Shown: piece by piece, positions 17,170 through 21,012 of the stretch | Layout: each line of letters opens with the position of its first letter | How positions within the stretch are numbered: the stretch's first letter is position 1 | NCBI RefSeq assembly: GCF_003583725.1 | Contig: NZ_QXTF01000001.1 | Span: 124,001-188,000 of the forward strand | Direction of reading: 5' to 3' | Source of the DNA: Sphingomonas edaphi | Lineage (GTDB): Bacteria; Pseudomonadota; Alphaproteobacteria; Sphingomonadales; Sphingomonadaceae | Length of the DNA stretch: 64,000 nucleotides | Notes under the pieces: model-generated | Databases searched by the model: none | What the model saw: the letters and a program-made list of their open reading frames with translations, nothing else | What the model was told of the DNA's origin: nothing | Program-made: the position numbers and the translations under genes

Positions 17170-18501
17170 CTAGGCGGGAACAGCCTCGGCTTCCGGCAGC
17201 CAACCCTTCAGCGCATCTCGAGCCCGGTCAGTGTAAATTCGCTTGCGATCGGCCTTCTTGGTTTTCGGGCCAGTAATCGGCGGCATCAGCCCGAAGTTGA
17301 TGTTCATCGGCTGATAGGTCTCGGCGTTCGCTCCACCAGTGATGTGACCGAGCAGCGCACCGAGCGCGGTTTCCGGCGGCGGTGCGGGAAGTTCGCGTTC
17401 CTTTGTCTCCGCGGCGGCGAATCTTGCCGCCAGCAGTCCGATTGCCGCGCTTTCCACATATCCCTCGCAGCCGGTAATCTGGCCGGCAAAACGGACGTGG
17501 GGTAGGGCCTTCAGCCGCAACTGCCCGTCGAGAAGTTCCGGCGACCGGATAAAGCTGTTGCGGTGGATGCCGCCAAGCCGCGCAAACTCTGCATTCTCAA
17601 GGCCCGGGATGGTGCGGAAAATCCGCACCTGTTCGCCATGCTTCAGCTTGGTCTGGAAGCCGACCATGTTCCACAAGGTGCCCAGCGCATTGTCCTGGCG
17701 AAGCTGGACACAGGCATGGGGCCATCGGCCGGTGCGCGGATCATCTAGGCCGACGCCCTTCATTGGACCATAGCGTAACGTTTCGACGCCGCGGGACGCC
17801 ATCACTTCGATTGGCATGCAGCCTTCGAAATACGGCGTGTCCTTCTCCCATTCCTTGAACTCGGTCTTCTCGCCCTCGTTCAAAGCCGCGACGAACGCCT
17901 CGTATTGCTCCTTGTTCATCGGACAGTTGATGTAGTCCTTGCCGCCCTTGTCCCAGCGCGCGGCCATCCAGCACACGTCCATGTCGATGCTGTCCCGGTG
18001 AATGATCGGGGCAATCGCATCGAAAAAGGCGAGGGCGTCGCTCCCGGTCACTCGCGCAATCGCCTGTGCCAGGCCGGGCGCCGTCAAGGGTCCCGTGGCG
18101 ATGATCGTTTGTCCCGCAGCAGGTAGCTCGTCGATCCGCTCCCGAACGACGTCGATATTGGGGTGGCCTGTGATGCGACCGGTAACCGCTCCGGCAAATC
18201 CCTCGCGGTCTACCGCAAGGGCTGACCCGGCGGGAACTCGATGCTCGTCGGCGCAGGCCATGATGAGCGATCCCAGCGTCCTCATTTCCTGGTGCAACAA
18301 GCCGACCGCATTATTCTCGGCGTCATCGGACCGGAAGCTGTTTGAACATACTAATTCTGCAAGAAAATCAGTGTCATGCGCGGGTGTCATGTCGAGGCCG
18401 CGCATCTCGGATAAACGCACGGAAACTCCCATATTTGCGAGTTGCCACGCTGCTTCAGACCCGGCCAGTCCGCCGCCGATGATGTGAACTTGATATGTCA
18501 T
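17170..18501 (-). CDS. trmFO: Methylenetetrahydrofolate-tRNA-(uracil-54-C5)-methyltransferase TrmFO, chimeric 5' end
   Basis: Folate- and FAD-dependent enzyme forming m5U54 in the tRNA T-loop. The 443-aa product has the N-terminal FAD motif [14 protein letters not shown], the conserved [24 protein letters not shown] block, and C-terminal [18 protein letters not shown]. The first ~55 codons (18501-18346) use AT-richer codons than the rest. A second, GC-rich copy of the same 5' end exists at 20370-20546. The simplest reading is that the 5' end and upstream region were supplied by an element inserted at 18335-20387, restoring a full-length gene. The start at 18501 follows the family; an ATG at 18513 would add four residues. 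Confidence 0.95.
18335..18345. repeat. Predicted left attachment core (attL)
   Basis: AAGCTGTTTGA, identical to 20377-20387. The flank below 18335 is the GC-rich trmFO body and the flank above is the element-borne 5' end. Read on the trmFO strand the core is TCAAACAGCTT, encoding Ser-Asn-Ser. Confidence 0.7.
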
Positions 18502-18527
18502 TTGAGGGGGCATTTAGGCGCTTTTTG

Positions 18528-18566
18528 GGACTCTGGGGACCCTAAATCCCCACAAAATCCCCACAC
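18528..18566 (+). repeat. Left copy of arm-type-like double-box repeat
   Basis: Within this stretch, 18544-18566 contains AAATCCCCACA followed by AAA and TCCCCACAC. The copy at 20284-20306 is identical at 20 of 23 positions, with TTT replacing the central AAA. Both copies are preceded by GGGACT plus a G-run that can pair with the first C-run. Repeated CCCCACA boxes near both ends fit arm sites bound by a tyrosine integrase, which is inference. The copy lies in the divergent gap between the new trmFO start and the first cargo gene. Confidence 0.65.
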
Positions 18567-18636
18567 TGAACGTGCCGCTCTAGCCAATGTCGCCGCGCGC
18601 TCGACTCTTTCGGAAGCGAAATATAACGTCTCACCC

Positions 18637-19173
18637 GTGTCGGACATACAAGTTTCCAGCGTAGATACTTTCATCGAGGGATATAAAACCTGCGATGGTT
18701 TCATGCCGCCGTGGGTGAAAGCGAGTGGCAGAGGCCGCGATTGGCAGAGTCGTTGGCCTATTATTGACGCAATGCACATCGCTTGTGGCATGTTATGCTT
18801 CGAGTGCGATGGCAGCTTCACGCAGTTAAGTATCAGCGTGATTTACAATCAGAGGCCCATCTTCAGGCTCGATGTCGTCCCGGACAATGAGCGAAAGGAA
18901 AACCCGTTCGCGGTCCGGCGCTATGCGCCAAGCTTGCCGCGGGAAGTCTGTGGCCCGCATACTCACCCTTGGGTGGAACATAGGGAATGGGTTCGGGCGC
19001 AGGGGTTGGGCGAGTTACCATTCCGGAAACCGTTGGTCGGATCGGTAACCAGTTTTGAACACGCTTTGGACATAGTGGCAGATGCTGTAAATTTGACACT
19101 GGCTGCGGGCCAGCGAAGTGTGGCACTGCCCGCTCAGGCTGGCTTATTTGCAAGGGAAGGGGGAGTCAGATGA
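18637..19173 (+). CDS. Element cargo gene A, unknown function
   Basis: A 178-aa protein from GTG 18637 (MSDIQVSSVDTFIEGYKTC...). The frame is open further upstream, but that part crosses the arm-like repeat and the divergent trmFO start, so it is unlikely to be coding. A TATAAC at 18622-18627 could make the message nearly leaderless. Notable segments are FDGSFTQLS-like strands, HTHPWVEHREWV and LPFRKPL. I cannot assign a family with certainty. It overlaps gene B by 4 bp (ATGA), so the two are translationally coupled and probably act together, for example as a defence or toxin-antitoxin pair. Codon use is AT-richer than the chromosome. Confidence 0.7.
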   Translation: MSDIQVSSVDTFIEGYKTCDGFMPPWVKASGRGRDWQSRWPIIDAMHIACGMLCFECDGSFTQLSISVIYNQRPIFRLDVVPDNERKENPFAVRRYAPSLPREVCGPHTHPWVEHREWVRAQGLGELPFRKPLVGSVTSFEHALDIVADAVNLTLAAGQRSVALPAQAGLFAREGGVR

Positions 19174-19904
19174 ACTGTGACGAACTCCGCAATCTCTTCG
19201 CAAAGAATGACCTTTGCCAGACGACAGAATACGGAGTGCGCTTCGAGACGCACTGCTATTATCCGTCATTCGATCGCGTTGCTGTGCATATCTCAAAATA
19301 CGGTGATGGATTTCGCGTAACCGACGCGGGCGACGCGGCTAGATCGGCGTTCATCCATGGCCGCGACGAGGCGGCATTCGAAACTAGCCTAAAGAAGGCC
19401 TGCAACAGATTTGGCCTGATGGCCAATGAGAGTAGTCTCGTTGCGGACGTTCCTGACAAAGAATGGCTCTTTTCAGCCATATTGGCTGTGGCAAATGGGG
19501 CTGCGCAAGCTTCAGCTGAGACTTCGGCGCGCGTCTTGCATCGAAAAGTATCTGAACTCCGGAAGCGTATTCATGACACTCTCGCGGAAATTGTTCCGGA
19601 GCATACGATCGCAAGCGAGTATGAATATCGCGGTGAAAGCGGGCGTCTCTGGCCGATTGATTTCGCGGTCGTCGAGGTTAAGTCGCCTCTGCTCCTGAAG
19701 GCAGTCACTCCTGACGCAAATTCTATCAACTCAAATTACACCGCCTTTGGCGACATCGCTGCTGCCGAGCGGGATCGGATCAAGCGCTTCTCGGTACATG
19801 ACTCACCCCTCCGGAACGAAGACGTGGCCCTGATGCTTCAGGTGGCGCAACTAGTGCCTTTGGCATCACTTAGTGGAGGAGCGCGGAAAGCCTTGGGCCG
19901 TTAA
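19170..19904 (+). CDS. Element cargo gene B, DUF1828-like N-terminus
   Basis: A 244-aa protein. Residues ~20-85 (YPSFDRVAVHISKYGDGFRV, TDAGDAARSAF) follow the DUF1828 pattern of paired strands ending in a TD-x-G turn. The C-terminal part (SGRLWPIDFAVVEVKSPLLL, then a Tyr-x-x-Phe-Gly-Asp motif) looks like the partner domain often described as DUF1829. It includes a D...E-x-K arrangement that could be nuclease-like, but the spacing is short for a PD-(D/E)xK enzyme. Such proteins are frequent in prophages and islands. The ATG overlaps gene A's stop. Assignments are from pattern memory. Confidence 0.72.
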   Translation: MNCDELRNLFAKNDLCQTTEYGVRFETHCYYPSFDRVAVHISKYGDGFRVTDAGDAARSAFIHGRDEAAFETSLKKACNRFGLMANESSLVADVPDKEWLFSAILAVANGAAQASAETSARVLHRKVSELRKRIHDTLAEIVPEHTIASEYEYRGESGRLWPIDFAVVEVKSPLLLKAVTPDANSINSNYTAFGDIAAAERDRIKRFSVHDSPLRNEDVALMLQVAQLVPLASLSGGARKALGR

Positions 19905-19925
19905 GTTCATTTTGCGGTTGGCGCG

Positions 19926-20192
19926 CTATTTAATTACCCGCAGCCCCCCATCGCTGCGCGTTGGGGCGCCGACAAAATCGGCTTCCCACCAAACCATGAA
20001 TCTCTCGTAGGCACTGGCATAGTCGCCGCAATAGAAATGCTCTCGCAGCGGTTCCAAGTTATCTACGGTTCCCTCGACGAGCCAGTAGCGCCCGAAGGAA
20101 TCGGGCCATATGCCCACCCACCGATCGTCATTGAGAACCATCACGGCCAAACACTTGCGCTCTAATGCCGCTACAAAATCCCTGTTCTGCAT
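19926..20192 (-). CDS. Element cargo gene C, small hypothetical protein
   Basis: An 88-aa protein (ATG 20192; an adjacent GTG at 20195 is equally possible) convergent with gene B. It is rich in Trp and acidic residues (DDRWVGIWPDSFGRYWLVEG, FMVWWEADF), has no signal peptide or membrane segment, and matches nothing I recognise. It lies in the AT-rich part of the element before the right-hand repeat. A single-copy short ORF, so moderate confidence that it is expressed. Confidence 0.5.
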   Translation of the reverse strand: MQNRDFVAALERKCLAVMVLNDDRWVGIWPDSFGRYWLVEGTVDNLEPLREHFYCGDYASAYERFMVWWEADFVGAPTRSDGGLRVIK

Positions 20193-20269
20193 CACTCAAC
20201 TTCTCAGATACGCGGTAACATAGCAGACCATCTCGATCGCATAAAAAGTAGCAAAAACAATAGCTTGAC

Positions 20270-20306
20270 GGGACTGTGGGTCAAAATCCCCACATTTTCC
20301 CCACAC
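20270..20306 (+). repeat. Right copy of arm-type-like double-box repeat
   Basis: 20284-20306 holds AAATCCCCACA, TTT, TCCCCACAC. It is the direct-repeat partner of 18544-18566 (20 of 23 identical) and is likewise preceded by GGGACT and a G-run. It lies 71 bp from the right core. Confidence 0.65.
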
Positions 20307-20362
20307 CAGTTCATTTTCATTCTGAAGGAAAAACGCCAACAAATTGAATCACTTGGTCAGCT

Positions 20363-20394
20363 GGTCTGCTTAATGAAAGCTGTTTGAGCAGACC
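20363..20394. repeat. Predicted right attachment region (attR) with inverted arms
   Basis: GGTCTGCT (20363-20370) and AGCAGACC (20387-20394) are perfect 8-bp inverted repeats around the core AAGCTGTTTGA (20377-20387). One arm lies on the element side and the other in the old trmFO coding sequence. Confidence 0.55.
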
Positions 20395-20546
20395 ATTTCG
20401 GCGAGCCGGTCGCTCTCGTGCGCGGGCGTCATGTCGCCACCGCCGCGCATTTCGCTGAGGCGGACCTTGAGACCGGCTTCGGCCAACTGCCATGCAGCTT
20501 CGGAACCGGCGAGCCCGCCACCGATGATATGGACGTCATGGGACAT
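20370..20546 (-). pseudogene. Truncated original 5' end of trmFO (58 codons)
   Basis: Starts at ATG 20546 and reads [20 protein letters not shown] and so on to VCSNSFH, then TAA. It is homologous to residues 1-55 of the intact TrmFO with about three quarters of residues identical and one extra glycine. It stops exactly where the 11-bp core and the element begin. The GC-rich codons match the downstream body of the intact gene, so this is the native 5' end displaced by the insertion. It lacks everything beyond the first FAD strand and cannot be functional. Confidence 0.88.
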
Positions 20547-20580: not shown

Positions 20581-21012
20581 ATGCGCATCTTCACCATCGG
20601 CTACGAAGCCGCGACCATGGACGAATTCCTTCGCGCCTTAACCGAGGCGGGCGTCGAACGCGTCATCGATGTCCGCGCGTTGCCACTTTCGCGCCGTCCA
20701 AGCTTTTCAAAGACCCCGCTACGCAATGCGCTCGCGGAAGCAGGCATCGACTACGTCCACTTCAAGGCGCTAGGCACGCCCGCCGAGGGGCGCGAGGCCG
20801 CACGAAAGGGACGCCATTCGGATCTTAAGCGCATCTACGCTGGCCAGCTCGACTTGCCGGAAGCGGTCGTCGCGGCAGCGCAAATGCGCGAGCTCGCAGC
20901 GGAGAAGCCAAGCGCATTGCTCTGCTTCGAACGCGAACCTGCCGGCTGCCATCGCTCGCTACTGCTAAAAGCCGTGGCGAGCGATGCCGAGCGGGTGGAC
21001 CTATTCGCCTAG
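20581..21012 (+). CDS. DUF488 family protein
   Basis: A 143-aa soluble protein starting MRIFTIGYEAATMDEFL, with the family's IDVRALPLSRRPSFSK segment and the C-terminal LLCFEREPAGCHRSLL motif. The conserved Cys/Glu and Cys-His-Arg residues are thought to form an active or nucleic-acid-binding site; the reaction is unknown. The ATG lies 35 bp from the stub of trmFO and is divergent from it, so this was the neighbour of trmFO before the insertion. The stop overlaps the convergent gene's stop (CTAG). Confidence 0.88.
   Translation: MRIFTIGYEAATMDEFLRALTEAGVERVIDVRALPLSRRPSFSKTPLRNALAEAGIDYVHFKALGTPAEGREAARKGRHSDLKRIYAGQLDLPEAVVAAAQMRELAAEKPSALLCFEREPAGCHRSLLLKAVASDAERVDLFA

Follow-up and report, generated by a model that had tools for sequence, protein, structure and literature searches.

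The 64,000-nucleotide window analyzed here (Sphingomonas edaphi, contig NZ_QXTF01000001.1, positions 124,001 to 188,000 of the forward strand) carries a 2,042-bp segment in the 5' end of trmFO, a gene that the segment both interrupts and restores. We give a probability of about 70% to the reading that this segment is an integrated mobile element without an integrase, which would keep a complete element-side attachment site (attP) for a two-domain (lambda-type) tyrosine integrase.

The element replaces the 5' end of trmFO

As the earlier note on this DNA had claimed, the element is bounded by two copies of an 11-bp core, AAGCTGTTTGA, placed 2,042 bp apart at 18335-18345 (attL) and 20377-20387 (attR); neither repeat is assigned to a strand. 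The cores open a direct repeat of 67 nt (73% identity), and next to it comes one of 59 nt (76% identity); the repeated sequences are two trmFO 5' ends. One of them, borne by the element (18346-18501, minus strand, with an alternative in-frame start at 18513), is in frame with the chromosomal part of the gene (17170-18334, minus strand). The other (20370-20546, minus strand) is the displaced native 5' end, a 58-codon stub that crosses the attR core and ends just past it. The fused frame is open throughout 17170-18513 and encodes 447 amino acids from the first ATG or 443 from position 18501; the 443-residue protein scores 681.8 bits against model NF003739 (cut-off, 262). The proposal that a site-specific element had entered the 5' end of trmFO and restored the gene is thus borne out. 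The left core encodes part of the TrmFO motif CSNSF, which is identical across eight aligned trmFO 5' ends, and this constancy may explain why the target is stable.

The stub outscored the fused 5' end in 40 of 43 trmFO loci, the exceptions being L052, L055 and L057; by this comparison the inherited trmFO 5' end is the stub rather than the fused copy. At third codon positions, GC content reached 77.4% in the stub and 74.0% in the remainder of trmFO but only 50.0% in the fused 5' end, in agreement with the AT-richer codons described earlier for the fused end and the GC-rich codons of the stub. Over the 56 codons compared, the fused end and the host stub differ at 55 bases (13, 6 and 36 at codon positions 1, 2 and 3, respectively), and 27 of the 39 changed codons are synonymous. 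Because the stub fits most loci better, the codon composition of the fused end deviates and its changes are mostly third-position and synonymous, the fused 5' end most likely arrived with the element and was then maintained as a working protein sequence.

Empty sites among relatives

An empty site had been predicted at which a single trmFO would be directly followed by the divergent DUF488 gene (20581-21012, plus strand, in the window). We examined 29 loci of relatives (L006-L034, approximately 3.2 kb each; tblastn, E of 1e-5), each of which contains a single trmFO 5' end. DUF488 is directly divergent from an uninterrupted trmFO in six of these loci. When the window flanks are joined, they align to nine of the 29 across the predicted empty site without gaps (78-88% identity over 104 nt). 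The empty site thus exists as predicted.

The doubled arrangement is rare. Among 332 family genomes, 323 contained a match to the stub peptide (E up to 1e-9) and four contained two: the genome of the window, G826, G894 and G926, the last three by match count. On rechecking genomes with several weak matches, we found one match each in 80 of 80 (E up to 1e-10; 80 of 108 listed, a list that leaves out other families of the order). The fused 5' peptide was matched in 254 of 385 class genomes (E up to 1e-12), with two matches only in the window genome; the 131 genomes without a match at this strict limit are uninformative, and the samples overlap. In G884 an apparent second stub (open frame 61) was rejected, as the contig ends there. 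The end of that contig (L129 3828-4003) lies a few bases from the trmFO core, by chance or possibly at an assembly branch at the attachment site.

Paired repeats at the element ends recur in a second genome

Each end of the element carries a paired direct repeat, AATCCCCACANNNTCCCCACA. The left copy, AAATCCCCACAAAATCCCCACAC, occupies 18544-18566 and the right copy, AAATCCCCACATTTTCCCCACAC, 20284-20306, both on the plus strand, and we propose them as arm-type integrase sites. Counted inward from the cores, AAATCCCCACANNNTCCCCACAC lies at 198 bp on the left and at 70 bp on the right, in the same orientation. Its 21-nt center occurs twice in the 2.37-Mb genome when up to 3 mismatches are allowed, solely at the ends of the element. 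The repeats match end to end at 20 of 23 positions, a value reached in none of 60 first-order Markov shuffles.

Of the 328 family genomes searched, one other, G907, contains the repeat (up to 1 mismatch); it occurs there twice, in the same orientation and 1,207 bp apart. The right G907 repeat equals the right repeat of the window in 23 of 23 nucleotides. The segment that holds both G907 repeats, one inside each end, measures 1,446 bp; the 63-nt repeats on its two sides are 89% identical and by eye resemble a portion of a tRNA-Lys gene. In the 55 kb read, ARAGORN detected no tRNA. We found no integrase in the 1,446 bp, and the open reading frames (ORFs) there differ from the cargo of the window element and have no significant family match. 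A third copy of the attachment sequence bounds a 4,350-bp neighbor encoding a tyrosine integrase with an arm-binding domain, so that the two stand in tandem (L063 6403-12260). On circularization, the pair-to-pair distances would be 302 bp for the window element and 239 bp for the G907 segment, by arithmetic. One further pair appeared in G438 under a looser pattern, and no integrase was recognized by eye near it. Blast searches with the repeat region returned weak, short plasmid matches and no phage match.

The crossover at attR is flanked by inverted half-sites, TGGTCTGCTTAA and TTGAGCAGACCA (20362-20395, no strand assigned), which are 92% complementary over 12 nt and are proposed as core-type integrase sites. 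An extra copy of the host-side half-site, AGCAGACCATCTCG, lies at 20222-20235 on the plus strand and is identical to 20387-20400 at 13 of 14 positions, possibly by chance. Internal extra copies of the own core half-site, direct and inverted, are found in both the window element (the copy just given) and the G907 tandem (L063 7650-7680, 7743-7755, 7947 and 8060).

The earlier note had described neither the paired end repeats, nor the absence of an integrase, nor the recurrence of the repeats in a second segment that has a different target. Because of these pairs and of that second segment, the element has the look of a non-autonomous unit flanked by attachment sites rather than of a small ordinary island.

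Similar pairs lie near integrases in viral contigs

The pattern TCCCCACANNNTCCCCACA was found at 44 loci in viral contigs, 22 of them within 400 bp of an integrase-type ORF (a match to a profile built from integrases), as opposed to 7.8 expected at random positions drawn within the same loci. The reversed pattern gave 19 loci, four of which lay near such ORFs (Fisher's one-sided P = 0.029). When look-alike loci were merged, the proportions were 17/32 and 2/11 (P = 0.046). Nine of the 31 viral ORFs that matched the profile were checked in Pfam, and all nine are phage integrases.

At the integrase-near loci (n = 24, including L076 and L086, whose distances of 519 and 1,261 bp lie beyond the 400-bp count), a second arm stood 150-350 bp away in the same orientation at 10 and in the opposite orientation at 3. 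The corresponding numbers for the other loci (n = 20) were 2 and 3. After merging, 8 of 18 integrase-near groups had a second arm in the same orientation. Judged by its arrangement, this layout is that of an attP with arm sites on either side of the core.

Searches for an integrase or a helper

The window genome contains six integrase-family matches, five above and one below the cut-off, and the repeat pair was not seen in the stretch read around any of them. An integrase of this genome (L040; G000 C1 near 466000) is located near a gene for a DGQHR-motif protein and beside a stretch that by eye is tRNA-like. Patterns combining arm and core had no match in either viral or genome contigs, the repeat preceded by AAA had none in viral contigs, and neither the stub nor the aligned trmFO 5' ends had a confirmed relative in viral contigs. 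Phage records gave nine matches (six Listeria, two Enterococcus and one unassigned), all below 60% identity and taken to be host DNA. The plasmid records matched numbered 28; among the 20 matches listed, the records were 0.85-4.6 Mb in size. As no helper was found in its genome, the window copy is probably stranded until one enters.

Cargo of the element

Between the repeats lie three ORFs, none of which was recognized in family searches as a recombinase, phage structural or conjugation gene. ORF1 (18637-19173, plus strand; 178 amino acids, with a GTG start chosen by eye) has no family match, and no PADLOC model matched it. ORF2 (19170-19904, plus strand; 244 amino acids) matches the defense candidate PDC-M24B (PDLC04540) weakly (E = 1e-9, 36.4 bits) and the phage family of unknown function phrog_1960 (E = 3.3e-6); no Pfam or NCBIfam match was found for it. 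We read the letter B in the model name as a sign that a PDC-M24 partner protein exists. For ORF3 (19926-20195, minus strand; 89 amino acids) the best match, phrog_19055, was not significant (E = 0.073). Structure predictions for ORF1 and ORF2 were unusable, with a mean predicted local distance difference test score (pLDDT) of 36.5 and 35.4, respectively.

The PDC-M24B model was matched in 2 of 296 genomes of the order, those of the window and G224. An ORF2 homologue was found in 1 of 100 relatives, which is the window's own genome; further homologues came from one Sulfitobacter plasmid, with 33.7% identity, and from an algal virus that is represented by two records and covers 44% of the query. 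None was confirmed in genome or viral contigs by a search that requires exact short peptides. The G224 homologue matches both PDC-M24B and DUF1828 and is adjoined by a small ORF of 172 amino acids, for which no PADLOC model matched, and the plasmid homologue matches DUF1829 below the cut-off. DUF1829 is present in a validated two-protein defense system, according to the sections of PMC13092281 consulted. A phage-defense module made of ORF1 and ORF2 is plausible but weakly indicated by these matches. Of these distant homologues, the plasmid copy (L035 6468-8729) has an annotated IS1595 transposase nearby and the G224 copy (L047 6427-8820) an ORF read by eye as an IS1595-like transposase, so ORF2-type cargo is not tied to this type of element.

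Proposed mechanism and alternatives

In the mechanism that we propose, another element (a phage or an island then present) would provide the integrase, which would bind the paired TGTGGGGA sites as arms and take the inverted half-sites as core sites. The circle would then recombine with the CSNSF codons of trmFO. The trmFO 5' end would lie inside attP, between core and arm, and each integration would therefore give the gene a new start. The cargo, ORF1 and ORF2, would pay for carriage, perhaps as phage defense. We infer the arm function of the repeats, mobilization in trans and the helper from the arrangement of these signals.

Several observations weigh against this reading. Neither a circular form nor movement of the element has been seen. 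Searches of viral and genome contigs and of family and class genomes turned up no integrase-bearing element at trmFO, and no promoter-like match was found close upstream of the restored trmFO start (two in the region versus 1.3 expected). Only two such segments are known, those of the window and of G907, and a control with the repeat read backwards matched once in G907 and once in G284 at 2 mismatches. The 4,350-bp integrase element of G907 has no CCCCACA pair despite the common attachment sequence and is for this reason not clearly a helper. The enrichment in viral contigs is modest, many of the 44 loci being near-copies; reversed octamer pairs also occur near integrases (4/19), and an overlap of the pair with the integrase stop-to-stop frame, near one end of that frame, is seen at 11 of the 22 close loci.

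The segment could instead be a decayed fossil: an island or prophage of larger size, equipped with an integrase specific for trmFO, would have integrated here and later been stripped of that integrase and of most genes by internal deletion, and the likeness to G907 would arise only from integrases of one arm-site class. Such an origin is the one given for integrase-less elements flanked by attachment sites in the definition of cis-mobilizable elements (CIMEs) in the part of PMC5704250 consulted, and the integrase element in tandem in G907 fits it as well. However, the two segments are both very short and carry their paired repeats at similar places inside the ends, and family searches recognized in the window element no remnant of an integrase, phage structural or conjugation gene. 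We regard decay as rather unlikely.

The absence of the pair beside the G907 integrase, together with the fact that the arm role was proposed from sequence, would also suit repeats that are replication iterons or regulator operators, with insertion by a recombinase that does not need them. We hold this to be improbable, as the position, direct orientation and spacing of the repeats agree with those of the repeats that accompany integrases in phage contigs. A further rival is tandem duplication in this lineage, raised in the earlier note as a competing origin, or else gene conversion; either would have left a trmFO 5' end on each side of inserted DNA and would account for homologous 5' ends on both sides of the segment. 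Because the stub is the inherited copy by the locus comparison, duplication is disfavored; the codon use of the fused end differs, the matched repeats inside both ends are left unexplained, and we consider this origin very improbable indeed.

Relation to known elements

An element without an integrase, as favored here, has partial counterparts. CIMEs are bounded by attL and attR and lack integration and transfer genes, in the part of PMC5704250 consulted. Like them, the window element keeps both attachment sites and has no recombinase or conjugation match in ORF1-ORF3, and its G907 counterpart stands in tandem with an integrase-bearing element. It differs from them in its very small size, in the position of its site in the 5' end of trmFO and in paired repeats common to a segment at another target. 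Nor is ancestry from an integrative and conjugative element (ICE) or integrative and mobilizable element (IME) shown, no intermediate or parent element having been found at trmFO in the family and class genomes searched. Like the window element, dusA islands insert at the start of a tRNA-modification gene, whose 5' coding end they replace by their own sequence (Farrugia et al. 2015, PMC4482086, in the portion seen). The earlier note had likened the element to these islands and to SXT-type elements; the replacement and restoration of the target's 5' coding end hold, whereas the integrase that the likeness implies was not found. All 94 dusA islands share a single gene, that of the integrase, and the smallest of them is 4,758 bp, in the same portion of PMC4482086; the window element, integrase-less, 2,042 bp long and located in trmFO instead of dusA, falls outside that group for want of this gene.

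An experimental precedent for integrase borrowing is the CR2-sul2 unit, which is excised and integrated by the GIsul2 integrase through recombination at the attachment cores (PMC9376610, sections consulted). That case was demonstrated by experiment in Shigella and Escherichia coli; it involves a bacterial attachment site downstream of guaA and is linked to an ISCR (insertion sequence common region) element and a resistance gene. Other hitcher elements, such as clusters of attC sites lacking integron integrases (CALINs) and miniature inverted-repeat transposable elements (MITEs), have no recombinase, keep recognition sites and depend on a helper, in the part of PMC11389934 consulted. Their helpers are integron integrases or transposases, whereas the window element has a lambda-type attP-like site and a one-gene target. 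On its anatomy, the window element looks like a CIME-like or other hitcher with a 5'-restoring site.

Two short same-orientation sites per arm around a core also recall the attP of P2-type phages. In that attP the arm sites are pairs of TGTGGACA, a string found in no paper among the matches listed, and the corresponding sequence of the window is TGTGGGGA; the resemblance is a possible one only.

Implications

No named element family that lands in trmFO was found in the literature searched, a body that most subscription papers lie outside; the part of PMC5726172 consulted reports trmFO as a place of secondary insertion for a staphylococcal phage. trmFO may be a new landing gene, restored at its 5' end. 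What is surprising is the combination of the same end signals with different targets and different cargo. In another genus, a second small element combines these end signals with a different site, and this suggests small passengers that borrow the integrases of other elements.

Tentatively, and against our own expectation, such units might form a family of integrase-less cassettes with a conserved arm-type pair at each end and varying core, target and cargo, hijacking tyrosine integrases that read TGTGGGGA arms. They would then be the equivalent, for lambda-type integrases, of MITEs, some of them with a replacement housekeeping start inside attP and defense-like cargo.

Islands are commonly detected by their integrase, so integrase-less units of 1.4-2 kb would escape detection. 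Such units can carry one or two genes, possibly for phage defense, and land in housekeeping genes, and the paired repeat offers a searchable signature for further ones.

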